This document shows, in pieces, positions 5,861-54,470 of a stretch of DNA of 64,000 nt; the stretch's first letter is position 1; each line of letters starts with the position of its first letter. The translations under genes and the position numbers were made by a program. Below the pieces are notes generated by a model that did no database searches, was not told where the DNA came from, and worked only from the letters and a program-made list of their open reading frames with translations. Source of the DNA: Ulota crispa (lineage: Eukaryota; Streptophyta; Bryopsida; Orthotrichales; Orthotrichaceae); NCBI GenBank assembly GCA_963920765.1, contig OY987251.1:12837219-12901218 (forward strand). The letters are read 5' to 3'.

Positions 5861-5870
5861 AACACCATAT

Positions 5871-8488: not shown

Positions 8489-8507
8489 CCCCTTGGGCGC
8501 TGAGGGG

Positions 8508-12492: not shown

Positions 12493-12923
12493 CCAATAGT
12501 GGATTGGCCGAGGGTGTATCTGTATTGACAATTACAAAACAAAAATTTGAAAAAAAAACCACATCTCTTATAGCAATTACATTTCACAAGCTATTGTACT
12601 TATTCAATATGATAATATATTTAACTAGTACACTATCGCTTTGGGTATATTCCAATGAAGGGTCATGCCTTCATTGATTGCCCTTGAGAGAAGTTAACAA
12701 AAAATGGCATGGTTGGCCTACCCTTTGAACAAAAAAAACTTGTAAAATACTAATAACTTTTGAATTGTAAATCTAAATTTGAAGAAAGTTGTATCCTTGG
12801 ATTGTATCCACATAGCTCTTGCAAACTCTATGAAATTCAAAAAAATTGATGAAAACCCTCAATAGAACAAACCCGCCCAAAATCCATCTTATTTCCTATA
12901 GCAACAATGAGCTTTTAGAGGTT

Positions 12924-13181
12924 CACGCATTATTTGTTAAATTGGAGAAAATGGAGGTACCATTTTGTACTCTACCTTAAACCCAAAAAGTCACCTTAAA
13001 CCAGATTCAAATGTATCAAATTCAATATGAGCCACTAAGATTTTTTCCCTCTCAAATTCCTCCTCTCAAGTGAGGGCATGTGTACCAAAAAAAGCGTTGT
13101 GAGCTTGGTTTTAGGTGGTCACCTGAAACCTTTGAAAGTCCCAAAATGTATTATTTTTCCCAATTTAACGAATAACGTGTT
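12924..13181. repeat. Family A MITE copy
   Basis: It runs from a degenerate CACGCATTATTTGTTAAATT end to TTTCCCAATTTAACGAATAA. The interior matches 4046-4296 closely. Confidence 0.65.
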
Positions 13182-13194
13182 GGTCACAAACTAC

Positions 13195-14469
13195 CTAACC
13201 CCTAGATGCATAAAGCACCATATTTGGGTGTTGAGAAAACTTTCAGAAACCTTGCTAAAGGTGGAGATTTGATTATATATTTATTTACTTTCTTTTTGGA
13301 GAAGATGCAGTCTGAAGCTCGGTTTGAAGTTACCTTCAATGTTGAATATGAATGTCTTCCATACTACATTCCAATCATTTTTGGTGGAAGCTAAAATACA
13401 AGCATGCCTCCTACGCATCAAAAGTACAATGAGTAGTATTCTTAAAGAGCCTATGATAATTTGCCACATTGGAAAGATGAGTAGCAAGTTGAGAAATCAC
13501 TAAAATCAAGATTGACACTCCTTTTGGTAGCAAGGTCTCTTTTACCAAAATTCCATTGTATACAAAGATATAAATGCATTTTGTATTAATTTCACTTGGA
13601 ATGTTTTTGTTATGCAAATCAAAACTCATTCAATGTTGAATTTTATTTCATTCATATTGATTTTTTGTTAATAATTGGAGTCCAACATTATTTTTGTATT
13701 AGGTGGTTGTTATTTGACAGTTACATTGCAAGTTTATTTGTGAAATTATGATCATGGATTTGAAAGGGGAGTCATTAGTTTTGAAGTAACAATAACAAAC
13801 ATTAAATCGTCATAAGTGGTTGTTTCCCAATTTTGTACACAAATTACGTTAGAAGTTTTGGGGTGCTCCAAAAAAATCAAAATATTCCATACTTATCTAC
13901 ATTCAATCACAAGTATCTTAACATATACGTCGATTTTTTGGAGGTTTTTTTTTGGCAACACCATCTATAAGCCTTGGAGTTCAAGATCCTACAATTACAA
14001 TTTTCTCTCAATGTTTAATGTTGATCTTAAAAGGACAATTCCAAAACCTCAAAAATGCCATCATGAGTTGAAAATGGAAAATATGATGGATACCCTTGAA
14101 GTTTGCAATATGCCCTTGATTTTTTAGAAATGCGCAAATACCCTTAAATCACAAATTTCAGGCATTTACATGTCACCTTTTTCATGATAAATGTTGAAGC
14201 AAGGAGTACTATGGAAGAGGAAAGAAGTAGCATGCGTACAAAGGGAGAAGGTAGTGACATGCACAACAGAACAAATGCTTCAAAATTATGGTCCAAGGGT
14301 ATTTATCCAATTTTTGAAAATCCAAGGGTTTTTATGCAGTTTTTGGAAAATCTACAAGTGTTTATGCAATTTCTAAAAATCCAAGGATATATTTACAAAT
14401 ATTGTAAACTTCAGGTATATCTATCAGATTTTCCCTTGAGAAAAGTACTCTCAGGAATTTAGGGGTTAA
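13195..14469. mobile_element. TTAA-family element with nested hairpin MITE
   Basis: It starts CTAACCCCTAGATGC, a one-base variant of the TTAA end, and ends GAATTTAGGGGTTAA. It contains the family D hairpin element at 14075-14435. The pairing of these two ends is inferred from family ends, as I have no second copy for comparison. Confidence 0.45.
14075..14435. repeat. Family D hairpin MITE
   Basis: The arms start GGAAAATATGATGGATACCC and end with the inverted counterpart ATTTTCCC. The subterminal block AATTGCACAAATACCCTTGG and its inverse characterise the family, also at 35295-35623, 38673-38994 and 41396-41525. Confidence 0.7.
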
Positions 14470-14872: not shown

Positions 14873-14953
14873 TTAACCCCTGAATGCCCTGGGTATCAAA
14901 GAAAACACGGAAAATGCATCAAAGTTTTTGTTGATGGGGCGTTGAGGGGTTAA
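14873..14953. mobile_element. Tiny TTAA-flanked element (81 bp)
   Basis: It runs from TTAACCCCTGAATGCCCTGG to GGGGCGTTGAGGGGTTAA. Its right TTAA (14950-14953) is also the left TTAA of the next element. It is comparable in size to the demonstrated insertion at 33707-33784. Confidence 0.75.
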
Positions 14954-16742
14954 CCCCTGAGCACCCATGCTATTTTCACCAAAATCAAGGTTTTTGGAGA
15001 CCAACAACTTCAATGCATTGTATCTCAAGCAATCAAATGATCCACATATACTAACCATTGAAAATAGTGGAACACCTACTTAGAAAATGACTTGCAAATT
15101 TTGGGAATCATTGACTATGGTAGATGAGAGATTATAACATTTGATTAAACAACATGTGATGACAAAAAACGCCATATTTGTTAATTTGGGACTAAACGCC
15201 CATTTTGGGACTAAACTAGGTTTAAGGTAATCACCTTAAACCAAACTCTAGGTTTAAGCATCATTTTTTTTGGTACACATGCCCTCACTTTAGAGGAGGA
15301 ATTTGCAAGGGACAAAATCTTAGTGGCTTAGACTGAATATAATACCTTCAAATCAAGCATTTAAACAGTTTAATGTAACTTTTTGGGTTTAAATTGAAGT
15401 GCAATTTAGGAATTGCGTTTTCCCAATTTAACAAATATGGCGTTAGAATCTCAAATTTTGGTAGGTAGTTGCTATTTGATGATTTTTACAAAATTCTATA
15501 AGCCCCCGATTCATCTTAAATTTTATGAGCAGCAAGATTACATGTGATTGCGGGTAATTGCAAGAAACAATTGTACTATTTCTTGTCTCCTTCACCTCTT
15601 GCGGGTACTTTTTGGCTTGTAACTTTTGCACGGCAAGTTCTTTTGAGCTGAAATTTCAAAGGAAGGTACATGTCATAGTTATAAACCTTCAATAATTTTT
15701 GCAGGTTTTTCAAAATTATTTTACTATTTTTGAACAACCCCTGAATAGGTGTCTACCTTAGCCATTTTGGGGGTTTTGAGTATTATTTTGGGTCCAAAAC
15801 AGCAAATCTCATGCCACAAATTAGGGAAGTTGTTCATCATAGAGCATTACATGGATTTGTAGAAGGGTTTCATAAAATTCTAAATTCCGTGTCGTGCACA
15901 CATCCTCAAAGTGGGCATCCTTTCTCAAATGATTGGTGAAACAAAAAAACTTCCTACAAAAACCACTTGCATCAGGTGAAGTTACTCAAAAATATCAAAA
16001 ACGGATATTTTTTATTTTATTTTTTTGAATTTTTTACTATTTTCTAAAAAGCAAAAAGAAAATTATCTTTTTGTTGGTAATTTATGTCCCTCTTTTTTTG
16101 TGCATAATTTTTAAAATAAATTTTTTCTACGTCTGGATTTTCACAAATATGCTATTTTCAGTGCTTTACAAGTTTTTCATATTTTATTTTATTTAAAAAA
16201 ATATATTTCAAATGCTCATAGTACTACCTAGTATTACTAGTTTTCAGGATGTTTGAGACAAAACAGTGAAGTGTTTCTTGCAACTACCCTTGCACACACT
16301 TGTAAATTATTGGAGATTGCACTTCTTTTTATGTCAAGTTTTAGGGCTTCAAATGGCTATTGCACTAGAAAACAATGATTGGCACAATTGGTGACGATTG
16401 CTATAATAAGGGTTTAGAACATGCTTGAACCCTTGCCAACAACTTTCCTCCTACCACAAAGCTTACACAAGGAAGCTTGCAAGGGATATTGACCGGTTGC
16501 AGCCTGTAAAATGTTGCTTGCCACCATGCTCCGTAGAGTGTTTCACCCAATCAAATCTCTTGCAGCAATTGTACAACATTTGACGTTTCTTGCCATGACT
16601 CCATTGGCATGAACAACTTGAATGCCTTCATAATTGTAGTTTATAGCAAGATCAAAAAGTTAGATCCATCATCCAATGCCTCAAACAAGGCTTTTAAATC
16701 ATAGGAGGCAATATTTGAGGCGCTAGGATGCTTAGGGGTTAA
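14950..16742. mobile_element. Large TTAA-flanked element, 1.8 kb
   Basis: It starts TTAACCCCTGAGCACCCATG and ends GGATGCTTAGGGGTTAA. Both ends and much of the interior match, in inverted orientation, the shorter copy at 48395-49151. A family A MITE is nested at 15168-15444. The section 16270-16700 is less AT-rich and shared with the other copy, but no intact ORF is visible. Confidence 0.75.
15168..15444. repeat. Family A MITE nested in the TTAA element
   Basis: It runs from AACGCCATATTTGTTAATTT to CCCAATTTAACAAATATGGCGTT (end at 15444). It is absent at the corresponding place in the copy at 48395-49151, so it inserted later. Confidence 0.75.
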
Positions 16743-21924: not shown

Positions 21925-22173
21925 TTAACCCTCGAGCGCTCAGCCCAAATTCATTGCGTGGTGGACCGTATTGCAAATAATTTGACACCACAAATTCAAC
22001 AAAAAAATCTAGAAGAATTAGCCATTGATATTGCACAAGGTTTAGGGTACGCAAATGTATGAAAAAATTGGTAAGTTTTCATCACATGAATCAAAAAAGT
22101 ATAACGGTCAAAGGCAACAAATTTTTGAATATGGAGAGGTTAGATTTGGGACGCTAGGGTGCTTAGGGGTTAA
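21925..22173. mobile_element. Short TTAA-flanked element
   Basis: It runs from TTAACCCTCGAGCGCTCAGC to GGGTGCTTAGGGGTTAA. Same family and size class as 49148-49385, with shared interior (GCAAATGTATGAAAAA, TTTTCATCACATGAATCAAA). Confidence 0.75.
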
Positions 22174-22569: not shown

Positions 22570-23532
22570 GGCCTTCTAGAGGGCTCAAAATTTTGCTAAT
22601 GGCCCAAGTGGTCCTTCAAGAGCCAAGTGGGGTTTTGGGCATGTATTTATAGCTAAACCACTTTGTGTGATTTTTTGAAACTTCTATGGAAGATGGGGAA
22701 TTCAAAAGATCTCTAAGGGCAATTAATTTATCTTCATTTTGACATTTATTGAAGAAGTTATGCATGGACAACTGAAAAATGGGGGAGAATCAAGCAATGC
22801 AAAAAAATTGCATTTTTTTAAAATAAAAAAATGAAATTGGTTCTTTAGACTTACATATATGTGGGAAGCTTTGAATCATTCAATTTTGATAGATGAGATG
22901 AAAGTTATGAGAAGTTTGAGTTTGCGGGTAGGTATGGGACTCCCAAATCTCCATTCCTTTTGCCCTTTGTAAAATCTGGTGCTTTACTTATTTAAGCTCT
23001 TTATGTATTTGTTTTTTGACTTTTTTTTCCAAGTTGTAGTAGACTAAGGTTCCTTGGTTTTCATCATTTGGATCACAATGATTCAAATTTCTGAAAATTA
23101 AATACATCCTTCAATTTTGCCTAGTGTATATGCAAATTTCATGACCCTATGGCATTGCAAGATTTTACAAAGTATGATTCACACCTCAAATTCATTTGAA
23201 AATTCTCCTTACCTAATCTAGTCTTCTACATGGGAAAAAAACCTCAACTTTACATAGAGCAATTTTTTTGATATAGTAGTGGTCAAAGGCTTCTAAAATT
23301 TTTGGGCAGTAGGGGAAAAAGGTATTTTTTTCACTTTAGATGTCAATATCTCACTCCTCTATATCTAGAATGAGCTAAAAAAAAAAATTCACAAGTACCC
23401 GCATAGTCTAGGGCAAGATCTTATGGTTGGATTTCCAAAAAAAGAAAATTCATACCATTCTACTCATTCCCCCAAAAGTGACAGTTTTAAGTGGCTTTCA
23501 CATAAAAAAGGGCTTGGGCTTTTAGAGGTTAA
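22570..23532. mobile_element. Long TTAA-family element, diverged
   Basis: The interior matches 36659-37599 (TTTTGGGCATGTATTTATAG; the TTGGTTCTTTAGACTTAC block; ATGAAAGTTATGAGAAG). The right end is GGGCTTTTAGAGGTTAA. The left end is degenerate and approximate. About 960 bp. Confidence 0.6.
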
Positions 23533-26706: not shown

Positions 26707-29700
26707 TCAAAACCTAAGCTTCGAGAAGAACCACCTGTTCTTGCCGGTCTTGAACCTCTCTTCCAAAACTCCTTTTGCTGCCTGTTGACATCAACAAACC
26801 ACGCGCTTAAAACCGCATTACGCTACAATTCCACTTCATCAGAGAATCAACATTCTTTATTTTCTTCAGAATAAGTTAGTGCTCGCAGTTTATTCAACTG
26901 ATCATTTCGAATAATACTAGGTACTAGGTTTATGTAATTATAATTTTAATCTAGTGCTTACTACTGTAGTTAGACCAAGCACAGAACCTGAAGAAAATGT
27001 TGAATTATTATAATTCCAATCAAATAATTCCTCAAAAATAACATTACAAAAACACAGTGTCATGAGGGTTGATTTGTTATTACAGAAAATAGGTGCTAAA
27101 GTTCATTTTCACAGGACAAAAATATTGACATCGATCTAAGATCAAAATAACAGGAACATGAAGGCCTGTTGGTTCAACATGAAATTCGTTTTGTAACTTT
27201 TAAACTTCTTTTATTTTTGGCCGGAGGGTAACAATGAGATGACAGTTGCTAGAAACGAGAAAGGGTGCTGAATAATACCTTTCTAGCTTCTACACGGCTA
27301 GCGGTAGATTCCAACTTCTCGGCTGTCACAGTGTTCTTCAAATCCACGTCCAAAGTATACCTGGCATGCATGATATATGCCGATTTCAGTAAACATCGAA
27401 AAATTCCAGTCAATTACTACACACTTGTCAGGTCGGAAAAACATCTCGAACTAAAACAAGCGACTTACGACACCTTTTATACTGAGAAAACCCAGACCAG
27501 ACACCAAGTTTGCTCTTAACCCTCAAGGGACCGACAAATTATGGTTCAGGAACGACCAATGCCATTGAGAAAATATACAACATGACCCTTACTAGAGTTT
27601 TCTTTTCAAAATCAAAAAAAAAAAAAACTGAATATGTCGGTAGGATTAGACACAAGAAGCCCTCGCATGACGTTTCAAAACTGCAAAAGAACACACGAGG
27701 CTTTTTGGTTCTCGATTGGATTTAATGGTACTTTAGGGGGTTAATTCTACTGTCAGGAGTACTGCAACACTCTTCAAGTAAGCCTAACGAAAATTGGTTT
27801 TGGTGCAAATTATCCAGGGCTTCAAAATTGCCAGTCTTCACAAAAATCCTTCAAAGTAATAACAATCAGAAACTGTCTGAGAAGCTACTATCAGATTGCA
27901 CCCAGTTACAGGGGGTGTTGTCAGCGAAACTTTCAAGTCACTCTAGGCCTCCCATGAATCAGACAAACATGCTCGTCAGGCTGGGATTAAAAAGAGGCAC
28001 AGTCCAAAAAACCAATGTGATTCATGACACTCAGGGCCGCTTCACACTATGGCCAAAAGTCAAGAGGACGTCAATTTCCACTAATCAGATTGCAAGAAAT
28101 CAAGAGTTTAGCCTCAACCTTCACACTAGAGGCCAAACTCCAAAGTCCCTCACCCCATGACATCATCATTTCATCCAAAACAATAGCCTCTCAAGAAAAG
28201 TTTGGGTCAAGCCAAAATGGAGACCCAAACTAAGGTTGAGAGGTCTTCAAATTTTCTCATAAAATAATCAAAAGCTGACGAGATTTTGGTTGTTAAATGT
28301 GGAAGGTCTAATTAATGTTATGACTTTGGACTTTGGGCTTGGCCTTTGGAAGCTCCACATTATGACTATTTAAGTTGATAGGCTGTGGAGTTTATGACTT
28401 TGGACTTTGGGCTTGGCCTTTGGAGGTTTCACACAATGACTATGGTCATTCAAGTTGAGAGGCAGTGGAAGGTCATTGTCAATAGTTTGGTCTTTGAACT
28501 TGGTTTTTGGAGGCTTCACACTAAGGGCACACTAAGGGCAGCCAAAGGTGTCAAAAATAATATTTTATGACCTATTTTCAGCACATTTCTTTGGACTCTC
28601 AACAAAGTTTGGTCACTCAATCCCACGGCCTCTCGACTTGGTTGGCCATAGTGTGAACCGGCCCTCAAAGTATGACATGACATACTACATTAAAAATGAT
28701 GTACAGTCTGAACACAAAACGAGTTGCTTCGATTTAAGAAAGAGGTAGATATAAGATTAACTCAGTACCTGGTGGGCATAATGTGGTTGTAGTTGACGAC
28801 TTTTGTGAACGCTTTCAGTCTAGAGCGCTTGGCAATGGTCTTCTGTGACGCCTTCTTGATTACCTGTACCCAAAGATAGAATTTCATTAGCAGCTATAGT
28901 CAACATTCTAGAAGCACATATCGATTTTCACAGAAGATCCAATTTAATTGATGATCGAGATCACTATATAAAGAATGTACGAGGATGATTCTTCGAAAGC
29001 GTACAATGACTTGTCTGAGTTTCGGTACCTGAGTGAGAAAATCAAAATGCTCAAACCGGAAAAAATGATTACTATATCATCGGTTTCCGTTTCGAAAACA
29101 GAATTAAGATACATCAATTTAAAACCAAAAAAGCTAAATAAAAGAACCTGCCGATGCAAGCTCTCATTGGAAAACATTTAATTTACCAATATGCAGTTCG
29201 GTTACCAGCAACACATGATAAGAAAGACCCAGACTTCGCCAGGTATCCAAAAGAGTGAGCTGATGTACATAACTCCTTAATAACCATGTACTCAAATAAT
29301 TAAGCTACATCTATCAAATCATTTTTTGATATTTCACGGATTTCGAACAAATACTAGATTCTTTGATGTATTGGAATTCTCATTCAGCGAAGGACGCCCA
29401 AAATTTTACAACAGTCTAATATTAAGCACCATGCTAAACAGATATTTTGAGTGTCCCGACCTTAAACCCTATATGAACCAAAAAAGCCCTAATAAACATA
29501 CCCTAAAAGCCACGAAAATTCTTAAAAAATCTACCAGATCCGATGAAGCGAAATCAAAACATACCAAGCGGGTAACTTAACAGCCACACGGACAGCTCTA
29601 CAGCGTTTACCATTGCAACTTTGACACTTCATACCTTTTGCACTAGATATCCTAATAAAGCATTATTTGGTGCGCTGGAATCGCCTTTCGCAATATCCAT

Positions 29701-31533: not shown

Positions 31534-32642
31534 TAAAGTCTTGCAGTTTGTAAGGTAACCTTCTCCATACCTAAGTAATCCCCAAAGCCAATCCCTACTT
31601 TTGAGGTGTTCTTCACACACTCTTGAACCCAAAGTGGAGTAGTGAATGATGCTTGCACAAGTAAATTTTGCAACATGTCATCTTAGGAGTTAGTTTGGGA
31701 GGGTTGGGATTGGGACCATCAAGTACATGTATAAGAATACATGCAAGTAGTTTCAAGGTTAATTTAGAGTTGCTTCTAGGGACCCTATGAGTTGTAACTT
31801 TGCCCTTTAATACAAATTACTTTATAATAATTTTTTTCACGAAAACAATGTTCCATGATAGCTTGCTGAAAGGCTAAACCCTACAAAAAAAATTCTTGAA
31901 TTTTCCAAAACCTTAAAGTACCCTAAACCCTTAAACGCTTGGGTATGGGAAAGGTTACATTAGTCCAAGGCAATGTCATTTGAAGAATCAACCAAAAGAG
32001 AGTACTACAGTCAAGCCTCTCTCATTGCATATTCCCTATTTGCATACCTATTTTGAATTCTTACATTGCATACTCTCTATGTGCATAAAGTATCATGCAA
32101 TAATCATGAATGGAGTTATTTTTGTCAAAATGAAACATCCAAAATACAATGTCACCAATAAAAAATGTGCTTAAACCTCTTTGTGTGCATACTACTAAAA
32201 TAAACTCCCCACCGTTCCCATACAATAAGAGAGGTTTGACTTTATATGTCCCGACAAGTTATTGATATCTTGTATGAGCACTAAACTGGCAATAATGATA
32301 TCCTTCACGAACACTAGTGATATCCCGACTGTATTTGATTCATATCCTACCTAGGTGCTGTTGATACCTCAAACATCAGATTGCTACCCGCCTATCGTCT
32401 CGCACCTCGGCTTTTTCTTCTGTCACTTCTCAACGCCATGGACTATACACCAAACTCCAAAGCCTTCGATCTGACACGAAATTTGCGTAGGATTTTAGTG
32501 AAGCGTGCATTTCCCGGTTCCAAAATTTCTGTCAAAGTCTCCACATTCAAATTGCGCCACAAATTTTGTACTCTTCCAAAGGGAATCATTTGACAACCGA
32601 TCAATTCTCGTCAGACCTCTCTCTCATCACAATCTTCCTCCC
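31534..32642. other. Intergenic spacer upstream of VPS36
   Basis: No ORF of note until VPS36. Positions 32263-32375 hold spaced GATATC(C/T) motifs like those near eL27. No clear TATA box for VPS36 was found. Confidence 0.4.
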
Positions 32643-35600
32643 ATGGAACCTCTCCCAAACCCCTGCGCACATGTCTTACAACTCGTGCAGCTAACACCAA
32701 GCGGACGACCACAGCTCATCCCCGGGGAAGTGGAGTGCCAGCTGCTGGATGCGATCGACTGGGAGGACGATTCCGGGCTGTGGAGCTTGAAGTCAGGACT
32801 GTTGAGCTTGACCACGCACCGACTGCTGTGGCTGGACGAGAGAACGAAGCAAGCATGGGCAGTGCCGTTGGGAGCAATTGGTCAAGTGTTCGCGTCCAAG
32901 AAAGGGCTGAAAAGTATGTTCTCTGCGCCTCGGATGAGGATTCAAGTCTGGACTCTTCCGGACGGGCGATTGTCGTCGGTGCACGGAGCTGCAAGAGCTG
33001 TGAGTTCGTTTGTGCTGTCGATTGTGTTTAAAGGAAGATCGGGACCGGAGTCGTTTGTTCAGCGGTTTGGCGAAGTGGTGAAAGCCCAGGCCTGGAAGGT
33101 TTGATCAACACTCCCTCTTTTTCTTAAATTAGGGTTAGGGTTTCTGGCAATGGCCGATCCTTCATTTATTTGTGTCTCTCATTGCTGTTTACGTTGTGTA
33201 AAATCCTTTGCTGTTTGGACCTGAATCGTTTGTTCAGCGGTTTGGTGAAGTCGTCAAAGCTCAGGCCTGGAAGGTTTGATCAACACTCTTTTTTTTTTTT
33301 CTTAAATTAGGGTTAGGGTTCCTGGCAATGGCCGATCCTTCATTTATTTGGGTCTTTCATTGCTGTGTACGTTGTGTAAAATCCTTTGCTGTTTCACACA
33401 TCGTCGCTAGTGGATGTCGAATTCTGTACTTGACGTTACAATCAAGGTGGATTTTAGTTTAAAGACCAATCCTTATCGTTTGTTCAGCGGTTTTGGCGAA
33501 GTTGTGAGAGCCCAGGCCTGGAATGTTCAACACTATCTTTGTTTCCCAAATTAGGATTAGGGTTTCTGGCAATGGCCGATCCTTCATTGTCTTGTAATCT
33601 CTCATTGCTGTTTACGTTGTGTAATATCCTTTGCTGTTTTGCACATCGTCGCTAGTAGATGTCGAATTCTGTGTACTTGGCGTTACAATCAAGGTGGATT
33701 TTCAGTTTAACCCTTAAATGCCTAAGGCACCAAATTCTGGTGGTTTTTACTCTAGAATTTGATACCTTGGGCATATAGGGTTAAAGACCCTTTGCTGTTT
33801 TACACATCGTCGCTAGTGGATGTCGAGTTCTGTGTACTTGGCGTTACAGTCAAGGTGGATTTTTCAGTTTAAAGACCCTTAGCTGTTGTACATATCGTCG
33901 CCAGTGGATTTCGAGTTCTGTGTGCTTGGCGTTACCATCAAGGTTGATTTTTCAGTTTAAAAACCAATTTGAATGTGCAGACAAACCTGGAATCCTCCCA
34001 AAGTCTTCCAATTCTGAGTGAATTGAGAGCACCTGGAGAAGCAGGCACAAGCGGTGTTACAACCGCCACGACTTCATTAAGGCCAGCTCCGAGCAAAATG
34101 AATCCGGCCATGGCAGGCGTTTCTGGCATTCTTCGAAAGGAGCAGGAGCAACAAGAAGAAGTTGACAAGAACATGAAAGAGGCTTTTCTAGACTTGAATG
34201 GTCTCATGGTGCGTTCAAAATTCTGCCATCTTGGTTTCGTCCCTGAGTGTTATTTGGTGTCATGTTACCAATGGTCTGAGAACAACCATTTGGGAAGTTG
34301 GGAGTTGAAATCAAGGCTTTAGGTTTCCAAAAGAAACCCTGTTTTTAAGAACAACCACCCACGGTTGCCAAAAGTCATGAGCTTTGGGGTTTTCTCAAAA
34401 TGAGTTGAATTCTGAGAATTTCAAGCATTTTGAGAACAATTTTTTGAGAGAGGCTTTGCTTGCGGTTGCTTTGTTACCTTCCGTGACATAACTTCTAATT
34501 TGCCAAACTTCAAGAGTAGGGGACGTCAAAGTGACATTTCAAGTTTGCTCTCTTAGGATGCCACGTGTGATAACCAACAATGTTATCTTCCTTTTTAACT
34601 TCCAACTGTGACGAACTACATTGTCAAAGACATACTTCAGATGCTGCTAGAAATAAGGAAAAATGATGAAATATGTTGCATGGCAAGGCCAAATTGGTTT
34701 TTTCTTTGGGAGCGAAGAGCTCATTGTGGCATTGATATCAGGGCAAAGCCAAGGAGATGGTGCAACTGGCGGAGAGAATGAGGGCGAGGTTGCTGCAAGG
34801 GCAAGCAGCGGGGGCAGAGGAGGAGGGGATGGGAACTAAGCAAGAGATGCAAGACTGGATGCTTAGCGTGGGAATTGCTTCTCCTGTAACAAAAGAATCC
34901 GCAGGAGCACTTTATCATCAGCAATTGTCTCGTCAGGTACGTTTTTTTCCTAATCATTGACAAAAAAAATCCACTTCTGCCAACATTGGTTCATTGACTT
35001 GCACTTTGAGAGCAAAATGTAGGTTTGTGTCTTGAGTTTTTTCATGTGGAAAATATTCTATATTGCGACAAGTCACTATTTGTTAGTACGAAGTGTTGTT
35101 TATAGATTGTTGTTTCTGTACCAAACGGAGAGTGTAAGCCACAGCACACTACTAGAAACAGCGTGTCAACAATGACTCATTTACCGTGGACAAAGTTCAC
35201 AATCATTGTGGACATGGTTTTTAATTAGTGTAATCTGACAATGCAGAAAATAATGGTACCCAGTGACTGTGCAACATGTATCAAAAACTATGAAGGGAAA
35301 ATTTTATGGATACCCCTGAAGTTTGCCATATTTGTATAGATACCCCTAGTTTTTCAGAAATTGCACAAATACCCTTGGATCATGATTTTCAAGCGTTTGT
35401 TTTATTGTGCATGCCACTTCTTTCTCCCTTGTGCACACGTTGCTTCTTTTCTGTTCTATTGTTCTATTGCACTCCTTGCTTTAACATTGGTCATGAAGGA
35501 AGTAGTGTGCACAACAAAACAAACGCTTGCAAATTATGGTCCAAGGGTATTTGTGCAATTTCTGAAAACCAGGGGTATCTATACAAATATGGCAAACTTC

Positions 35601-38600
35601 AGGGGTATCCATAAAATTTTCCCAACTATTAAAAGCATTCATTGCATGTTGGTGCCCATTATTTCAATCATTGAAGATTGTACTGAGGAATACAGTAGGA
35701 AATGACATAAGGAGTTTTTGGAAAGAGAGACATGAAAACATGGGGTAGAGACACTTGCAGTTAGCCGCTTATGTTGAATTTTTTGCAGTTGTATTCAGAT
35801 GTTTATAACAACAATGTTAGCACAGTGCTATGAAAATGCTGAATGTTTTTTCACAAGTTCTGACTATATGTAGCAGATTGGATTGTTGGTGCGTGTCAGC
35901 TAGCTGATTTTGTCAAAGATCCCGTACAAAGGGCTGGAGGCATGCTTGCCTTGATTGATGCCTATTGTCTATTCAATCGAGCTCGTGGCACAGGTCCTTA
36001 CCCCTTTCTACCCATTTTCTTTCATTACAATAGATCTTGCATATAGTCAAGCCCTAAACGCCGGGCTATAATACTGTTTTCAAAAGTTGCAGAAGTCAAC
36101 AGTGCATGTTGCCCCCATGAAAATTGCAAGAAGGATAGTATGGGACCTAACACCATGTCTATGAATCTTCTCACAATTTTTGGGTTACCTACATATATGA
36201 GTGCATTTGGTGAGGTTATTTGATTGACCATATGTTTATGATCACTTCTGAAAAAAAATCAGATGAAAAACAACTTTTTCCATCCGACAGAGGATTTTTT
36301 GTTGTGCAGGGGACAAAAAATGTCCTCTTTGGCTCTTTGGCGTTTAATGGTTAAGCACCGGGGTAGGATATGTACTTAGACAGGTTATTAATAGATGTTG
36401 ATCTTGATACAATATTACATGATCTTGATACAATATTACATTATTTGTTTACTGGTTAGGATCAAGAGATTGCATTTTCATTTACAGATGTTTATTCGCT
36501 TGGGTAGTAGGATTTTAGTCTTTACTGTATTTGTAGCAGATTTGCAATTTTTCCTTCTCACCTGTTTCTGTAGAGAGGTTACATGGACTTTGGAAATTTG
36601 AATTTCTCACTGCTACATAGAAATGGCTTATGGTCTCGGAACTTCTCAATTGTTTTATTTAACCCCTCAAGGCCCAACTGTCCCCCGGGGGGGCAGTTGA
36701 GATTTCGGACATGTACCTATAGCTAGTCTAGTTTTTGTGATTTTTTTAAATTTTTATTGAAGGTGGGGAATTCCAAGACCTACCCGGGAATCTAATTTTT
36801 TTGTCATTATGACATTTGACAAAGAAGTTATGCAAGAATTTCTGCTGCCTAGGGAAGGGAGGGCAATCTGGGCAACCCAAAAACTTCTAAAAATTTGTAT
36901 TTTCTAAAAATAGAAATCTGAAATTGGTTCTTTAGATTTTTTTCATATTTGGGAAGCTTTTAATCATTCAACTTCAATCGATGAGATGAAAGTTATGAGA
37001 TGTTTTAGTTTGTGGGCAGTTATGGATCCTCTACTCTAAAATAAACTTTGAAGTCCTTTATTTTCCACAATTTTTCATATTTTGGAAAAAAAACTAAACC
37101 TAAGGAAGTAGATTGTATATTACAACATTACAATCGTTGGGATTTGCATTTTTCATTTTAATAATTAAATTTTGAACAATTTAGTGATTTGACTCATTCT
37201 CGACTTCTTTTTACTTACTATTTCCCCCCATGTGTTGTATAGTTCCAATTGATTTGAAAAATTTCCCACACATACCTAACTTGGTCTGCTACATGGAGAA
37301 AATAAACCTCAACTTTGTGTAGAGGAATTTTTTTCATGTAAGTGTGGACAAAAGCTTCTGAAATTTTTTGGACAGCACAAACAAAAACCTTTTTTTTCAT
37401 TTTAGATGTAAGTATCTCCCTCCTCTCCATCTAGAATGACCTGATTTTTTCCCACAATGACCTCTTCTAGTCTAAGGCAAGATTGTATGGTTGGATTTGC
37501 AGAACAAACTTTATTTCCCACTTTTCTACTCATTCCCTCCAAAATGGCAGTTAACAGTGACTTTTAGTGGAGAAAACTGCTTGAGCCTTTAGGGGTTAAT
37601 TACTGACATGAACTTGTGGAGGGTGGGTACAGAACTTATATCACCAGAGGATCTGCTAACAGCTTGCACAGTGTGGGCTGCTATTGATGTGTAAGTAAAG
37701 CTTTTTTGTGCTACATGCAAATTTTGTGTCCAACTGGAGGTAGATGATTGTTGCTTTTGTCAGTCTTTTTACTTTTATTTTTTTACATTAGACCCTGTTT
37801 AATTGGGGAAATCGAAGAAGACTGCTAGGAGGGTAGATGTGCACTTAGGCAGGTTAAGCAGGTTATATAATGGGGAATGTTATACCGTGAGCAGGGATCC
37901 ATAAGCCGTCAACTGTGAGCCTAGATTTTTTTGTTAGAACACTAAACTTTACTTATAATTGTGTACATAGGGCCCTATAATTGTGTATTTTAAATTTTTG
38001 ATCTCTTGAGAAACTTGCTGTTTTTTTAATTATTCCATTGATTTTGAGCTCACAATTGGTTCCCACTCACAAAATTTTGGCTCACCCTTTTACACTCTCA
38101 AAATAGCGTTGTCCTATTTACTTAGGCATCTTTTAAGACCAGTTCTTGATATTTCCTAATAGATGTTTCACAGTATAATTCATCATAGTGAAAGCTAGCT
38201 TATAGTCAACTAACCTTAACCTGAAGTGAATTTTTAGGGTTTAGGGTTGCTTGGGGTTTTGTGAGACTGATTTGCAAAGATAATTGTGAATGTGCAGACC
38301 TTTCAGGTTACGGAAGTTTGATAGTGGAGTGATGGTCATTCAGTCAGTGAGTCAGAGTGACGATGAGGTAAGTTTATTTCAACAAGTAGGTGATGGAGTT
38401 ATTGGAAAACTGTTCTTCAAAAACAAATACATTTCCCTCAGAGGAAAAGTAGGGATTTCAAGGAAAACCGAAAGCGTGGAACTCAGAAATGTGAATACAG
38501 TAGTTATTTGTCTTGGATGTGGTGAAGTTGCTATTGACCTACGGGTAGTTTCTATGTTTTTTTCTGTTAATTGATGGGTATGTACTAATAATCACGTTAT

Positions 38601-40826
38601 TACCAAAATAACAACAAAATTAATAAGCGTAGTTGTATTACTGTGGTATACATTTTATTCATATGTTTTTTAGGGAAAATTTCATGGATACCCCTGAAGT
38701 TTGTGATATTTACATAGATACCCCTGCTTTTTCAGAAATTGCACAAATACCCTTGGACCATAATTTTTAGGCATTTATTTGTTGTGCTCCTACTTTCTTC
38801 ATGACCAATGTTGAAGAAAGGAATGTAATGAAACAAAAAAAGAAGCAACGTGCGCACAAAGGAAGAAGGGAAGTGGCATGCACAACAAAACAAATGCCTG
38901 AAAATTTTGGTTCAAGGGTCTTTGTGTAATTTTTGAAAAAGCAGGGGAATCTATGTAAATATTGCAAACTTCAGGGGTATCCATGAAACTTTCCTTACAC
39001 TTTATTCATATGTTTTCTTAGTACTGAATCAATGTTAAAATGTCATTTTTTGTATTGCTTAAACTTTTGAAGTGTTGAAGTGTACAAAAAGTAGGGTTGA
39101 CAATTTGTCCTCATGTATGCCGTTGCAGATTTTCATGAGGCTCCGTGCATTGGTCAAAAATGGAGAAGCTGTGAAAGTTGGCGTAGGCGCAAGTGAGGCC
39201 GCTCGTGCCTTGGGAATGGCTCCTGCTCTTGCCAAAGAGCAACTTCTAGCAGCGGAGACCCAAGGTTTGTTTCTGCACCCCCAAAAACATTTGAATTCGA
39301 GTAGGACCATTAAAATTCAGTTTATCATTCATTGTCATTAATAAAGTCTTTAATTTTGAAAAGGCAAAATACGCTAGTGAAAATCTTCACAGTTTCTATG
39401 TTATTAAATGCCACTTCAGATTGCATGGGTTGTAGGAACGAGTTTTTGGATTCAAGAAAAAAAGAAGCGTACAATTTAACAAACATCATGTGCAACTAAG
39501 TGTCCCAAATCTCAAGTCCCAGTTTTGTTGGCTTGAGTTGTAGTGAGCTATTTGAGATCCCAAGTTAAAACTTCTTGATGATAGTAAATGTTAATTATAC
39601 GACAATGTATCTATTATACTCTGGGATGTTTAAGGATTAATCAAAACTTTACAAAAATACCCTTCCACCAATACCCTTCCACCCTCAGGCTTAGGGACAC
39701 CTTATTTTGTGATAGACCTTACTCCATAGCCTAAAATCCAGATGAAACAAAAGGATGTAAACAGATAAAAAATAGATTTTTTTCCACCAGGATCCCTTTT
39801 TTTCTGGAGCTTGTAACTTCGATCTGTGCAGTGTAAGGTGGTTCTTTCATTTAAACTGTACTTCAAACTGTAAAGAATTGAAACATCTTTTGTGTGAATC
39901 TCTATAAAATACTCCAAGGAAGTCGTATATTCTCACACCTGTAATAGAAAAACTCTCATTATTGTATAGTGCAAGACACCAAATACCAACAAATTTTTGG
40001 TCAAAAATGTCAAATAGTTGTAGATTTTGAATGCTGATAACTTTTTTTTGGCAAACAATAATTTCAATCTGTTTTTGCAGCTTTTATCCTAAGACCTTTG
40101 CTGCTTATAGTTACAAAGAATTTGAACTTATTGAAGGGTGTTATAGTTACCAAGAGTTTCAACTTATTGAGGGGTGTTAAAAGGTAGGAGCACCCCTCAA
40201 TGTCAGTGTCCCCATCCCCAATACCTACTTGTGTCAGTGATGTCAATGACTGACAATTTTTTTTAAAATTGGTTATGGGTGACAAAGTGATGGTTTTAGG
40301 TGATTGACATTACAGTTTTGAGTGCCCCATCTCACTATTAAAGTACTCCCCAAGTTAGTATTTTGAGCGTATGAGCACACTAAAGACATCTCCTACACAC
40401 AACTAGACATTTTTAGTGATTTAGGACTTTGAAAAATCTTTGTGAACAAATGCTTGCAATTGAAACTTTCAAATTGATGCCAATATTTTTGATTTCCTCT
40501 TCCTAACTTAACACTATTTTTTTCACAAAGTTCATTGACTAACTTTTCTACCCCAAAACCCTTAGTTTCACGCTTATGGATGCTTGTACCTTAGTTACAA
40601 AGAGTTATAACTTAGCTACAAAGAGTTATAACTTATTGAGGAGTGTTATGAACAGCTTTTTAGGTCTTTGTTGATTTATGCTATCTTGCACCGTAGTTGG
40701 TTCTAATCCTTTGCTTTCGTGGGTCTTGCAGGGCTTCTGTGCCGGGACGATGGTGCTGATGGCTTACGTTTCTTTCACAATTTTTTTGTGGATATCTCTG
40801 TTGCTACTGCTTTTGAAACCATCTGA
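32643..40826 (+). CDS. VPS36: VPS36, ESCRT-II subunit (GLUE domain)
   Basis: ESCRT-II subunit that binds ubiquitinated cargo and phosphoinositide on endosomes and helps sort membrane proteins into multivesicular bodies with VPS22 and VPS25. Eight exons with matching phases: 32643-33098, 33981-34208, 34742-34936, 35900-35993, 37633-37690, 38298-38367, 39129-39264 and 40732-40826, giving 443 residues; Arabidopsis VPS36 is about 440. The GLUE/PH-like domain is exon 1 (about residues 1-150; [22 protein letters not shown]). A helical linker with [20 protein letters not shown] follows (about 200-219). The winged-helix EAP30 region holds [20 protein letters not shown] (about 269-288), [30 protein letters not shown] and GLRFFHNFF. 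The start is MEPLPNP: the longer in-frame N-terminus from 32505 is unlike the family. Introns 1, 3, 4, 5, 6 and 7 contain mobile elements or duplications; none touches an exon. Confidence 0.95.
33042..33960 (+). repeat. Tandem duplications of the exon 1 end in VPS36 intron 1
   Basis: The last 57 bases of exon 1, its splice donor and about 120 bases of intron recur at 33217-33470 and again, decayed, at 33475-33705. Shorter units of the intronic part follow to 33960 (ATCGTCGCTAGTGGATGTCG; AAGGTGGATTTTCAGTTTAA). The second copy of the exon tail keeps the reading frame and the donor GTTTGATC. Confidence 0.85.
33707..33784. mobile_element. 78-bp TTAA insertion with preserved empty sites
   Basis: TTAACCCTTAAATGCCTAAG to GGGCATATAGGGTTAA, inserted in one unit of the intron 1 tandem repeat. 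Sister units show the uninterrupted sequence AGTTTAAAGACC at 33459, 33869 and (as AGTTTAAAAACC) 33957. Comparison shows that TTAA is single in the empty site and doubled in the filled one. Confidence 0.92.
35147..35230. repeat. Possible CACTA-ended mini-element in VPS36 intron 3
   Basis: It starts CACTACTAGAAACAGCGTGT and ends GGTTTTTAATTAGTG, roughly inverted. There is no matching 3-bp duplication, so it may be a decayed copy or chance. Confidence 0.35.
35295..35623. repeat. Family D hairpin MITE in VPS36 intron 3
   Basis: It runs from GGGAAAATTTTATGGATACC to its inverted end ATAAAATTTTCCC. Arms of about 110 bp or more can pair across a short centre, so the intron transcript would form a long hairpin. 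Confidence 0.8.
36047..36354. mobile_element. Degenerate TTAA-family element in VPS36 intron 4
   Basis: TCAAGCCCTAAACGCC at the left and GGCGTTTAATGGTTAA at the right are inverted. A related, more decayed copy lies inverted at about 6500-6790. Confidence 0.55.
36659..37599. mobile_element. Long TTAA-flanked element in VPS36 intron 4
   Basis: It runs from TTAACCCCTCAAGGCCCAAC to TTGAGCCTTTAGGGGTTAA, 941 bp; the best-preserved copy of the long subfamily here (others: 2167, 6880, 22570; half-derived hairpins at 8508 and 46439). It encodes nothing substantial. Confidence 0.8.
37876..38112. mobile_element. GTGAGC-rich element in VPS36 intron 5
   Basis: The subterminal repeats of GTGAGC/GCTCAC at both ends (CCGTGAGCAGGGATCC; CTCACAAAATTTTGGCTCAC) define this family, shared with 45455-45708 and 46047-46289. 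The exact ends are uncertain. Confidence 0.6.
38673..38994. repeat. Family D hairpin MITE in VPS36 intron 6
   Basis: It runs from GGGAAAATTTCATGGATACC to the inverted CCATGAAACTTTCC, a close relative of the intron 3 copy, 322 bp. Confidence 0.8.
40180..40594. mobile_element. AAGGTAGG-ended element in VPS36 intron 7
   Basis: AAGGTAGGAGCACCCCTCAA at the left and CACGCTTATGGATGCTTGTA at the right, 415 bp. The interior is closely similar to 25789-26147 and 42743-43178. Confidence 0.7.
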
Positions 40827-41395
40827 ATTTATTCAATTCTCTCTCTCTTTTGTTTGTAATATTTTATTTCCCTTTCTACTGATTTTTCACGATCTTCACA
40901 AGGATTAAGGTAGGTACACCCATACCCGAGCGTTTAAGGGTTTTGGGTACCGCAAGGTGTCAGAAAATTCAGGAATTTGTAGGGTTAGCCTTTCAACAAG
41001 TTATCATGGATTGTTATTTTTGTGGAAAAAAATATTGTAGATTATTTTATATTAAAGGGCAAAGTTACAGCTCATGGGACCCTAAAAGCAATTGTAGGCT
41101 AACCTTAAAACTACTTGGGTGTGTTCCTATAATGGCATTTGACGGTTTGAATCCCAACTCTCCCAAATCAGCTTAGCAATTGACATGTGGGAGGATTTGC
41201 TTGTGCAAGTAGTGTTCATTGCTCCACTTTGGGTTTAAAAGTGTATGGTGAACATTTCAAATGTGAAGTGCGCCATTGGGAGCCACTTGGATTTGGGTGT
41301 ACCTATCTTAGGTTGCAAAACTTGTTGGTAGAAACTCCACCTATACAACATGTTTCTCTCAAAGGAGAGAAATATTAAAAATTAAAGGAAAATTT
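40827..41395. other. VPS36 3' region; no further gene
   Basis: A T-rich stretch follows the VPS36 stop (TTTGTAATATTTTATTTCCC near 40854), consistent with a 3' UTR. The rest has no coding signal. Confidence 0.4.
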
Positions 41396-41525
41396 TTGTG
41401 GATATTCCTAAAGTTTGTCATATTTGTATAGATACCCTTGAGTTTTCAGAAATTGCACAAATACTCTTGGACCATAATTATCAAGCATTTGTTCTATTGT
41501 GCATGTCACTTCTTCCCTCAATCAA
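41396..41525. repeat. Partial family D MITE (one arm)
   Basis: Only the left arm is present (GGAAAATTTTTGTGGATATT; AATTGCACAAATACTCTTGG); the other arm is missing. Confidence 0.65.
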
Positions 41526-41758: not shown

Positions 41759-41979
41759 TCAACCCCTAAAGGACAAAGTAGCCCTTTACGACTAGTATAT
41801 TTAGAGTGTACCCACACCTTTATTACATTTGAGATCAACAAAGAAGTTAGAATATAGATCAATGTTGTTCTAGTGAGGTAGTCAAGATCCCAAATTAAAA
41901 CTTTTTATTGGTAGCAAATGCCAGTTATACAACAGCATACATACTATGTATTATAGTAGCCTTGTCCTTTAAGGGTTAA
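41759..41979. mobile_element. TTAA-family element
   Basis: CAACCCCTAAAGGACAAAGT to CCTTTAAGGGTTAA. The same element lies inverted at 43921-44160 (shared TATTACATTTGAGATCAACAA and flanks). The left flank reads CAA instead of TTAA, a point difference. Confidence 0.65.
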
Positions 41980-43920: not shown

Positions 43921-44160
43921 TTAACCCTTATAGGACCAAGCTACTATAATACATAGTATGTACGTTGTTGTGTAACTGGCATTTGCTACCAACAAAAATT
44001 TTAATTTGGAATCTTGACTACCTTACTAGAACAGCATTGATCAATACTCTAACTTCTTTGTTAATCTCAAATGTAATAAAGGTGTGAATGCACTCCAAAT
44101 ACAAGAGAAACACCCCGTATTGTACTGTTGCAAAGGGTTGCTTGATCCATTTGGGGTTAA
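43921..44160. mobile_element. TTAA-flanked element
   Basis: TTAACCCTTATAGGACCAAG to CCATTTGGGGTTAA; inverted copy of 41759-41979. Confidence 0.7.
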
Positions 44161-44395
44161 TACTAAAACGAAACAACCAATTTAGCAAATGGTCATTAAA
44201 ACATTCTAAAATTTTAACACATCATTTGTGAACTATGCAATTTTTTTTTTTGTTTCTTATACCTTTGACGCTTTGTAGTTTCTAATTGAGATTATTTTCC
44301 ATTACGGTTACATCTTTGCTCTCTTTGAGTCATTTGCTAAGAAAATCTACAATTTGATTACCAAGAAATTAATAAAGTGGGAAACTGATTTCCAA

Positions 44396-46438: not shown

Positions 46439-47172
46439 TTAATGCCTAAAGGACTGACTGTCTATTCAAGGGACAAATGGGATTTTGGGCATGTACCTAT
46501 GGCTAAAGTACTTTGCGTGATTTTTGAAACTTTTATGGAAGATGGGGAATTTGAAGATCTGTGTGCACATCTAATTTTTTTTTTCAATCTGACATTTTTT
46601 GAAGAAATAAAAAATCAATTTCTGAATTTTTTTGGAGATGGGGCAGTCTGGGCAGCCCAAAAACATTTTTAAAATTTACGTTTTTTAAAAATAAAAATCT
46701 GAAATTGATTCTTTCAGTTTACATGTACATGGAAAGCTTTGAATCACTCATTTCCAATAAATGAGATGAAAGTTATGAAGACTTTTAGTTAATTGGTAGA
46801 TATGGCTCCATATCTACCAATTAACTAAAAGTCTTCATAACTTTCATCTCATTTATTGGAAATGAGTGATTCAAAGCTTTCCATGTACATGTAAACTGAA
46901 AGAATCAATTTCAGATTTTTATTTTTAAAAAACGTAAATTTTAAAAATGTTTTTGGGCTGCCCGGATTGGCCCATCTCCTAAAATTTCAGAAATTGATTT
47001 TTTACTTCTTCAAAAAATTTCAGAATGAAAAAAAAAAATTAGATGTGCACACAAATCTTCAAAAACCCCATCTTCCATTAAAGTTTTAAAAAATCACACA
47101 AAGTAGTTTAGCCATAGGTATGTGCCCAAAATCCCATTTGTCCCCCAAATAGACAGTCAGTCCTTTCACAAT
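46439..47172. mobile_element. Long hairpin element of the TTAA family
   Basis: Two arms of about 365 bp, almost perfectly inverted, meet at a tight centre (GGTAGATATGGCTCCATATC) near 46805. Each arm is the left half of the long subfamily. TTAA is recognisable at the left end (46439-46442); the right end is degenerate. Confidence 0.75.
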
Positions 47173-47780: not shown

Positions 47781-48033
47781 GTTACTCCACCCCTAAAGGA
47801 TGTTGCCTACCAAAAGTGTTGTATGTATTTGTAGGAGAATCATTTAGTACTTGAAAAAAAAAATTTACAACAACGGTCAAAAATTCCCCAAAAAAATCCT
47901 AGTTAACCAGGATTATGTTTTTGACTTGGTTTGAAATTTACAACTCCAATGGGATTCAAGTGCTATTCAAATACCTCATATGTAAACAACACAGGAGTCC
48001 GTATACAAAACAGCAACATCCTTTAGGGGTTAA
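47781..48033. mobile_element. TTAA-family element
   Basis: The left end CCACCCCTAAAGGATGTTGC and right end GCAACATCCTTTAGGGGTTAA are inverted over about 18 bp; the left TTAA is altered. Confidence 0.65.
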
Positions 48034-48084: not shown

Positions 48085-48323
48085 ATTAACCTGTGAAGGG
48101 CCCTTGGGCTCTGGAGCTACGGTACCATATACGGTCGCAACCAATATTCAGAAGTTTGATTCAGCTGGAAATTAATTAAGTGTTTCTACCATACATATTA
48201 AAGGGTTGTATGATGATGGGTGCATATTTTTTTTTGAAAAGCCCTCAGAGCAGCTCTCAAATACGTTTGTACATACAATCATACATACAGCCGCAAAGGG
48301 CATTTGGGCCCTTCAAAGATTAA
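48085..48323. mobile_element. TTAA-flanked element
   Basis: TTAACCTGTGAAGGGCCCTT to GGGCCCTTCAAAGATTAA. The inverted copy is at 57130-57361 (shared ATACGGTCGCAACCAATATT and GAGCAGCTC). Confidence 0.75.
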
Positions 48324-48394: not shown

Positions 48395-49151
48395 TTAATC
48401 CTTGAACACCCTAGAGAACCAAAAGTGTCCTCACAAAGATTTTTGAGGTTTGTTTGAGGCACTGGATCTAATTTTTTGATCTTCTTATAAACTATAATTA
48501 TGAAGGCATTCAAGTGGTCCATGCAAGTAGAGTAATGGCAAGGCAAGCCAAATGTTTTACGAGTGCCTCAAGAGCCTCAATTGGATGATATGTTGTACAA
48601 GGCGTGGTAGCAAGCAATGTCTTACAAGCTCCAACCGGTCAATATCTTTTGCAAGCTTCCTTGAGTGCTTGGTGGTAGTGGAGAATTTGCCGGCAAGGGT
48701 TCAAGCATGTTTTAGACCCTTGTCATGGCAACCCTCCCTAGCTGTACCGGTCATCCTTTTCCATGCAATAGTAGTTTGAAGCCCTAAAACTTCACATAAA
48801 AAGAAGTGCAATCTTCAATAGTTTGCAAGGGTGTGCATTCACATATAATCTTGCTACTCACCAAAATTGAGATGAATTAGGGGCTTATAGAATTTTTTTA
48901 AAATTGATTAGTAATAACTACTTGCCAAAACATAAGATTTTGCCATCACATGTTTTATCAAATGATATAATCTTCCATCTACCATGGTCAATTGTTTCCA
49001 AAATTTGCTATTTGTTTTCTGATTAGATGCTCGACTATTTCCAAGGTCACTTTTTGTGGATCATCCCATTGATTGAGATACAATGCATCAAAGTTGTAGG
49101 TCTCCCAAAATCTTGATTTTGGTGAAAATGGCTTGGGCGCTTAGGGGTTAA
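48395..49151. mobile_element. TTAA-flanked element
   Basis: TTAATCCTTGAACACCC to CTTGGGCGCTTAGGGGTTAA. An inverted, shorter relative of 14950-16742; the less AT-rich section 48400-48790 is shared by both and may be remnant coding or captured DNA. Confidence 0.75.
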
Positions 49152-49385
49152 TCCATGAGCGCCCAGCCCAAATTCAGGCTGGGTTAGACCTTGTTGCAAA
49201 CAATCTGGCACTATAAGTTCAAAAACAACATCTAAAAGAGTTAGCCTTTGATCTTGCACAATGCTTAGGATTTGCAAATGTATGAAAAATTTGGTTTTCA
49301 TCACATGAATCAAAAGATTATACTGGTCAAAGTCTGCTAAAAATGGAGAGGCTAGATTTGGGGTGTTGGGGCGCTCAGGGGTTAA
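49148..49385. mobile_element. Short TTAA-flanked element sharing a TTAA with its neighbour
   Basis: It starts at the TTAA that ends the preceding element, then TCCATGAGCGCCCAGCCC, and ends GGGCGCTCAGGGGTTAA. Same family as 21925-22173. Confidence 0.8.
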
Positions 49386-52829: not shown

Positions 52830-53700
52830 GAATAGTTGCCACCCTATGACATCATTCTTGGAAGAATGTTCAAGTTCATTTCACTACGCACTGTGGCAAC
52901 TCCATGACATCATTCCTAGAAGAATGTTCAAGTTCATTTTCTTGCAGACAGTGCCCACTCTAAGACATCATTCTTGGAAGAATATTCAAGTGAAAGAAGC
53001 ATTGGAAAATGAACTTTAAGTGGAAGTTGGTAATTTCTTTTGACAGACACTAGAAGGTCTTGGACGTCACTCTTGGAAGAATGTTTAAATTCATTTTATT
53101 GCAAACAGTCTTCACCTAGAGACGTCATTCTTAGAAGAATATTCAAGTGAAAGAAGCATTGGAAAATGAACTTTTAATGGAAGGTAATAATTTTTTCACG
53201 GTCACTAGACGGTCTTGAATGTCATTCTTGGAAGAATATTTAAATTCATTTTATTGCGGACAGTGCTTACCCTAAGACATCACTCTTGGAAGAATATTCA
53301 AGTGAAAGAAGCATTGGAAAATGAACTTTTAATGGAAGGTAATAATTTTTTCACGGTCACTAGACGGTCTTGAATGTCATTCTTGGAAGAATATTTAAAT
53401 TCATTTTATTGCGGACAGTGCTTACCCTAAGACATCACTCTTGGAAGAATATTCAAGTGAAAGAAGCATTGGAAAATGAACTTTTAATGGAAGGTAATAA
53501 TTTTTTCACGGTCACTAGACGGTCTTGAATGTCATTCTTGGAAGAATATTTAAATTCATTTTATTGCGGACAGTGCTTACCCTAAGACATCACTCTTGGA
53601 AGAATATTCAAGTGAAAGAAGCATTGGAAAATGGACTTTTAATGGAAGTTGGTGATTTCTTTTCACGGACACTAGACAGACTTAGACGTCATTCTTGGAC
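52830..53700. repeat. 155-bp satellite array
   Basis: Near-identical units of exactly 155 bp: the marker GGAAAATGAACTTTTAATGG starts at 53161, 53316 and 53471, and a one-base variant at 53626. More diverged units precede it from 52830. Each unit contains two copies of a sub-motif CATTCTTGGAAGAATATT, so the array grew from a shorter repeat. Confidence 0.92.
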
Positions 53701-53859
53701 AAATGTTTAGATAAACAAGCAAGACCCAGGAATGGGTTTAATGAAGACCTAACCATACATTTGAAGAGATGTCTTGAAACTTGCACCACAATGAATGACA
53801 TGTACACCTCAAGTAGTATGAAGAGAAGCAATGATCTCCATTCATGTTGGATTTGATTT

Positions 53860-54470
53860 GGCATTGTAGTAATTGGACTAGGGGTGGTGCACGCTTCCGC
53901 GCCACACCAAAACCAAATACTACAAGGAATCTCCATTCATATTGGACTTGATCTTGCCTTGTAATATTTGGGCTTGGGATGACGCGGATGCGTGCGCCAC
54001 TCAGACCAATGCCGGCAATGATGCTGGTCAAGGTGGCGTGCACATCCGTGCCACCCCAAGCCCAAATACAACAAGGGGTCTCCATTCATGTTGAACTTGA
54101 TCTTGCCATGTAGTATTTGGGCTTGGAGTGGCACGGATGCGCGTGCCATTTGGACCAACTTCAGCAACGATGCTAGGTCCAGTGGCGCGCGCATCCGCGC
54201 CATCCCAAGCTCAAATACTACTAAGGATTTTCCATCATGTTGGACTTGATCTCGCTTTGTTGTATATGGGCTTGGGGTGGCGCAGATGTGCGTGCCACCG
54301 GGACCAACGTCGGCACTCCATTCTTGTTAGAATGTCGCCTTGTAGTATTTGGATCATGGGTGGCGCGAATGCACGCGCCACCCAAAATAGCGTTGTTGCC
54401 GATGTTGGTCCGGGTGGTGCGTGCAGCCGCGCCACCTAGGATCAACGCCTTTGCCTAGGCTCCCCTTGCA
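53860..54470. repeat. GC-rich palindromic array
   Basis: Repeated inverted pairs of GGTGGCGCGGATGCGCGCGC-type sequence, flanked by CTTGTAGTATTTGGGCTTGG and its inverse, at about 120-150-bp spacing. It is strikingly CpG-rich in an AT-rich setting. The ORFs across it on both strands are by-products of the repeat. Confidence 0.75.

Follow-up and report, generated by a model that had tools for sequence, protein, structure and literature searches.

The locus raises the question of which transposition system, if any, placed a short foldback sequence between two copies of TTAA in what reads as the first intron of a VPS36 gene, and whether the TTAA was duplicated in the process. The window, by which the whole analysed stretch of DNA is meant, spans 64 kb and has a GC content of 37%. 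With a probability of about 0.7, the 78-bp unit at 33707-33784 is an old, non-autonomous MITE of the piggyBac type that reached VPS36 intron 1 by a TTAA-duplicating insertion.

The intronic element and its empty sites

The TTAA copies that flank the element, at 33707-33710 and 33781-33784, enclose 70 bp, the halves of which are imperfect inverted copies of each other and compose a near-palindrome with a TIR of 28/27 bp. The hairpin has a predicted energy of -38.0 kcal/mol, compared with -12.3 +/- 3.0 kcal/mol in 500 base shuffles. The termini are CCCTTAAATGCC and GGCATATAGGG, with CCCT at both ends, bearing out the initial annotation, which had described an insert with these ends bounded by two TTAA copies.

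The host site is read as VPS36 intron 1 from the open reading frames 32502-33104 and 33948-34319, splice-like bases, and Pfam families. A Pfam profile scan of the six frames, for which the translations were cut into 30 overlapping segments and stop codons written as X, gave, at E values up to 0.01, matches to EAP30/Vps36, Vps36_ESCRT-II, Ribosomal_L27e, SAM_decarbox, AdoMetDC_leader, and, weakly, KOW in the whole window. The pairing of AdoMetDC with its leader peptide points to a plant nuclear genome, and together with ribosomal L27e and EAP30/Vps36 it supports the plant-type host that had been proposed. The intron is built from tandem units: those of 178 bp and about 245 bp include copies of the tail of exon 1 and are followed by 88-bp units. 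Two extra copies of the exon-1 tail are observed within the intron, one at 33215-33280 with an intact-looking donor (AAG/GTTTGATC) and one at 33470-33530 with an altered donor (AATGTTCAACAC); the exon-1 tail copies within 33042-33545 may offer 5' splice sites that act as decoys or alternatives.

The filled site was compared with sister junctions by joining the flanks of the element and counting identical alignment columns (Table 1). At 33869, both flanks align (left 81/89, right 75/84), for a joined total of 156/177 identical columns. At 33459 and 33957, the right flanks diverge beyond the first 5 bases, with 20/35 and 18/33 gapped columns identical, respectively, over 30 bp. Of the three empty sites reported previously, the one at 33869 is thus full, whereas the other two are half sites that match on the left flank only. 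The site at 33869 could be either a site that was never filled or one from which an element was seamlessly excised, and the insertion at 33707-33784 would most likely have followed the multiplication of the 88-bp units.

Table 1. Coordinates of the intronic element, its empty sites, and the TTAA elements of the window
Coordinates	Strand	Feature	Remarks
33707-33784		TTAA + 70-bp foldback MITE (CCC..GGG) + TTAA = 78-bp unit	in VPS36 intron 1, as read here
33042-33965	+	tandem units of 178, about 245, and 88 bp	from the tail of exon 1 almost to the 3' limit of intron 1
33869-33872		empty site with one TTAA, matching on both sides; lies between sister units of 88 bp	156/177 columns; E 2e-68
33459-33462		half empty site	left flank 80/89; right 5/5 bases only
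33957-33960		half empty site	left flank 74/89; right 4/5 bases only
44337-44340	-	single TTAG at related empty site of 21925-22173	joined-flank search
21925-22173		TTAA element, same-type ends; related empty site 44337-44340 (-)	alignment, joined-flank search
49148-49385		sister of 21925-22173; alignment bounded by TTAA at start and stop
48086-48323		TTAA element, ends mutated (CCTG, TCTT)	TTAA-bounded alignment to sister 57130-57361
57130-57361		TTAA element, inverted sister of 48086-48323
2167-3096		TTAA element, 930 bp	candidate empty site, ambiguous
8234-8488		TTAA element	single TTAA common with neighbour on each side
8508-9160		TTAA element, 653 bp	82% self-complementary along whole length
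10206-10861		TTAA element, 656 bp	perfect TIR of 17 bp
14873-14953		81-bp TTAA element	adjoins 14950-16742 via one shared TTAA
14950-16742		TTAA element enclosing two other MITEs	sister 48395-49151
36659-37599		TTAA element, 941 bp	partial diverged copies 6895-8237, 22615-23532
48395-49151		TTAA element	sister of 14950-16742

Empty sites at other loci, which the initial annotation had proposed as a check, were sought within the window by searching the joined flanks of 18 intervals against the 64 kb; these represent 17 elements, for one of which two alternative right ends were considered; the interval 981-1762 was left out. Two intervals gave a clean result (33707 and 21925), one was ambiguous (2167-3096), and 15 gave none. 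The second site was found with the joined flanks of 21925-22173, which match 44364-44243 on the minus strand with 79.5% identity over 122 columns. This site, at 44337-44340, is about 20% diverged and reads TTAG rather than TTAA, whereas the filled copy reads TTAA..TTAA. For 2167-3096, the right flank of the candidate site matches a foldback family, and the left aligns poorly with an offset of 1-2 bases. All other spanning matches consist of an element's own flank plus its end, of end similarity between elements, or of chance matches (E 0.43). A duplication lying outside the TTAA was considered as well and rejected, no exact direct repeat of at least 3 bp being present there in the 18 searched intervals.

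The empty-site reading can return answers other than TTAA, as is seen from two MITEs nested in 14950-16742. Against the empty sister 48395-49151, the nested MITE 15168-15446 (AACGCCATATT ends) gives an overlap of about 2 bp, and the nested insert 15552-16290 (GGGTARTTGCAAG ends) gives one of about 3 bp against its empty sister. TTAA is palindromic, and empty sites therefore cannot tell a TTAA duplication from a TA duplication within a fixed outer T and A. The claim of direct proof of TTAA duplication was accordingly too strong, both for this palindromy, which suits a TA duplication equally well, and for the single two-sided site among the three reported.

TTAA elements across the window

In addition to the intronic element, the window contains a population of elements with similar boundaries, with lengths from 78 to 1793 bp. 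Their ends are CCCCTNARNGCCCAAG-like. The sequence TTAACCCCTNA occurs 20 times in the 64 kb, compared with a mean of 0.3 and a maximum of 2 in 50 order-1 simulations, and 12 of the 14 left ends reading TTAACCC have a GGGTTAA partner 60-1000 bp away, compared with a mean of 0.3 and a maximum of 2 in 40 order-2 simulations. These figures bear on the view that the intronic unit arose by no transposition at all, as a by-product of recombination between tandem units or by chance. Its position at a unit junction of the tandem array is in keeping with such an origin, which is nonetheless barely credible given that same-type ends stand far above chance across the window and that the second empty site, 44337-44340, lies outside the tandem arrays detected in the window.

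The specificity for TTAA is best judged from ends that were found independently of it. The pattern CCCCTNARNGYY, which does not contain TTAA, has 15 matches, of which 14 lie directly after TTAA, with a variable base before the TTAA; two of the 14 fall within one 23-bp tandem repeat, and sister copies among them are not independent. The lone exception, at 40193, is preceded by AGCA. Looser end patterns give a weaker signal, being preceded by TTAA in 18/31, 24/52, 20/34, 5/36, and 2/33 cases. Ends scored with a matrix, again without TTAA, number 58, of which 32 are preceded by TTAA, with 12 expected by chance at that score; the matrix was trained on TTAA-bearing ends, and weight is therefore placed on the TTAA-free pattern (14/15) instead.

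Counts from selected elements are of a different nature. Of the 18 intervals listed, 15 are bounded by TTAA on either side, and the left end is altered in the other three (TCAA, TCCA, and ATAA); this proportion is not evidence, since the intervals were chosen mostly for TTAA. Similarly, the 13 elements whose 26 ends were counted had been selected for a TTAA on each side, and TTAA at 26/26 of these ends is therefore no evidence either. Omitted from these counts were 27516-27744, 43921-44160, 41759-41979, 47786-48033, and 981-1762, in which the TIRs or one TTAA are poor. All 26 ends start with two pyrimidines, and 21 start with CCC; the opening four bases are CCCC in 15, CCCT in 6, and other in 5 of these ends, which were mostly sought by CCC.

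Two full-length sister pairs, 21925-22173/49148-49385 and 48086-48323/57130-57361, align from TTAA to TTAA and have unlike flanks. Two ends share a single TTAA at each of five junctions (8234/8237, 8485/8488, 8508/8511, 14950/14953, and 49148/49151), two of which, within 8465-8516, may reflect slippage of a 23-bp unit. That stretch, which closes off one of the TTAA elements, contains 2.3 copies of the unit TTAACCCCTTGGGCGCTGAGGGG and looks like either a 19-bp mini-element between TTAAs or a product of slippage.

The TTAA elements are short, have TIRs, lack coding capacity, and occur in several copies, as MITEs do; the interval 14950-16742 exceeds the usual MITE length because of its nested inserts. 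Altogether, 16 intervals cover 7,802 bases, or about 12% of the gene-bearing 64 kb, a figure that includes about 1.0 kb of other MITEs nested in 14950-16742.

Assignment to a superfamily

No transposase, the DDD type of piggyBac included, was matched in any of the six frames of the 64-kb window (Pfam, E up to 0.01), and membership in piggyBac is therefore judged from the ends and the target, from which it appears most likely, if unproven. The hallmarks of piggyBac are described as TTAA and CC[C/T]T ends (PMC2872659), and the first three bases of its TIR as CCC (PMC10813416). Duplicated TTAA, the piggyBac target, is indicated in the window by the empty sites 33869 and 44337-44340 and by 14/15 ends, a result with which TA in a fixed context is formally compatible. 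With CCCC the commonest opening (15/26) and CCCT present at 6/26 ends, a minority of ends conform to CC[C/T]T in its strict form; one coral piggyBac MITE family is likewise described as beginning with CCCC (PMC2872659). The differences from piggyBac are that no transposase was seen in the window, that the ends are mostly CCCCTNARNGCCCAAG-like, that some interiors are long palindromes, and that the host is a land plant. Viral contigs scanned for TTAACCCCTNARNGCCCAAG gave 0 matches.

Other superfamilies could account for insertion at TTAA. An origin of the elements from Kolobok or Sola3, each TTAA-specific, is unlikely. Sola3 uses a TTAA target. Kolobok, known from chlorophytes and from red algae, shares the TTAA duplication with the window elements, and its termini are given as 5'-RR..YY-3' (PMC9587614), whereas the window ends are YY..RR, with pyrimidine starts at 26/26 ends and RR at 0/26, in a comparison that is confined to the CCC-sought family and silent on other TTAA elements in the window. 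TTAA-specific insertion and CCC..GGG ends, as proposed in the initial annotation, are supported, and the form of the ends makes piggyBac a better fit than Kolobok, an assignment based on ends and target.

A Tc1/mariner-type system would have duplicated TA and left ends of the form ACCCC.. with a strong preference for T-TA-A. A strict TTAA context is not usual for mariner. The palindromic target makes both empty sites fit the TA parse equally, and Tc1/Mariner MITEs are listed as one main plant class (PMC12550479). A TA MITE would leave its outer bases free; instead, the outer T is kept in 14/15 of the ends found without TTAA, and TTAACCCCT occurs 21 times in the window versus once for CTAACCCCT and 0 times each for ATAACCCCT and GTAACCCCT. 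This imbalance, like the presence of TTAA throughout the family, makes TA duplication with an invariant outer T and A unlikely, and on these grounds the mariner parse was rejected as quite improbable.

PIF/Harbinger duplications are 3 bp long. Both TTA and TAA are contained within TTAA, and PIF/Harbinger MITEs also form one main plant class (PMC12550479), such that a TTA or TAA duplication can be envisaged. A 3-bp duplication would free one outer base per element, whereas the whole TTAA is found at 14/15 of the TTAA-independent ends, on both strands; this parse was therefore rejected as well, and it is very improbable.

For the preferred piggyBac-type assignment, a transposase encoded elsewhere would bind the common ends of the TTAA elements, which, by analogy with piggyBac, would be excised with TTAA overhangs and pasted into a new TTAA with duplication of the target. 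Structural work on piggyBac describes hairpins formed by TTAA at excision, target sites in which the TTAA is unpaired, and duplication of the 4-bp TTAA (PMC7351741). Divergent TIRs and mutated ends suggest that the copies in the window are old, and they are probably inactive. Whether this land-plant lineage has, or for a long time had, a piggyBac system of its own that excises seamlessly at TTAA and the MITEs of which filled gene-bearing DNA is a more tentative matter; we consider this possible, at rather less than even odds.

Related systems and other repeats in the window

The piggyBac of Trichoplusia ni and its superfamily are described with the same TTAA target and TSD and the same CCC/GGG termini as the elements in the window (PMC7351741, PMC10813416). 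The coral CMITEs of Acropora, as described in PMC2872659, resemble the window elements in being about 100 bp in length, with TTAA on both sides, C-rich ends, and an arrangement in tandem arrays, and an empty allele with a single TTAA is described for them too. The differences are that the CMITE host is an animal and that CMITEs combine conserved interiors with varied TIRs, whereas the window elements have shared TIRs and varied interiors. In addition, the TIRs of coral family I were found on an isolated piggyBac-like element, AmiPB1 (PMC2872659), for which there is no counterpart in the window. Coral family III starts with CCCCTCAG (PMC2872659); the likeness of this family (CCCCTCAGTGTCCG, PMC2872659) to window ends such as CCCCTCAGCGCCCA was set aside as too short to weigh.

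Similar to the elements in the window, the five main plant MITE superfamilies are described as short, non-coding, TIR-bounded, and present in several copies. To our knowledge, TTAA duplication is not a defining feature of any of these superfamilies. A survey of 207 plant genomes places MITEs primarily in these five superfamilies plus a special group, probably Micron, and its main text contains neither the word piggyBac nor any word beginning with TTA (PMC12550479). Plant piggyBac elements are mentioned in passing in PMC10794571, PMC10813416, PMC10140906, and PMC8086355, and plant piggyBac as such is thus not unheard of. The view of the initial annotation that plant MITE populations do not usually include such elements accordingly agrees with the main text of the survey and is qualified by these passing mentions. 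Among the matches listed for the open-licence literature, none dealt, at the level of the listing, with TTAA MITEs of land plants. From these sequences, a TTAA-specific MITE population in a land plant appears real, with the piggyBac type, known from animals, as its most likely assignment.

If this is true, plant MITE pipelines built mainly on five superfamilies could overlook a TTAA class or assign it wrongly, and the window would offer a concrete place from which to seek an endogenous plant piggyBac transposase and natural footprint-free excision. According to one review, every plant DNA transposon found leaves a footprint (PMC10905368); a native plant piggyBac with seamless excision, if true, would be an exception to that statement.

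Several other repeats are observed in the window. The foldback at 15168-15446, nested in 14950-16742, belongs to another foldback MITE family, which is unrelated to the TTAA elements and has AACGCCATATT..AATATGGCGTT ends; its relatives lie at 544-703, 3555-3998, 4046-4293, 5860-6116, and 12921-13174. The insert at 15552-16290 is 739 bp long, has GGGTARTTGCAAGAAAC ends and an overlap of about 3 bp (TGC), and corresponds to an empty sister site near 48836. A 719-bp foldback at 46448-47166 is 93% self-complementary and shares interior sequence with 36659-37599; no clear TTAACCC end was found for it in 70 bases at each side. A further foldback repeat family is represented at 35295-35623, 38671-38997, 14073-14437, and 41385-41514, with GGATACCCCTGAAG near both ends of the first two copies. 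Two tandem arrays are also present, one at 52846-53712 composed of 155-bp units that are about 91% alike and the other at 53883-54436 composed of units of about 149 bp with internal inverted repeats.
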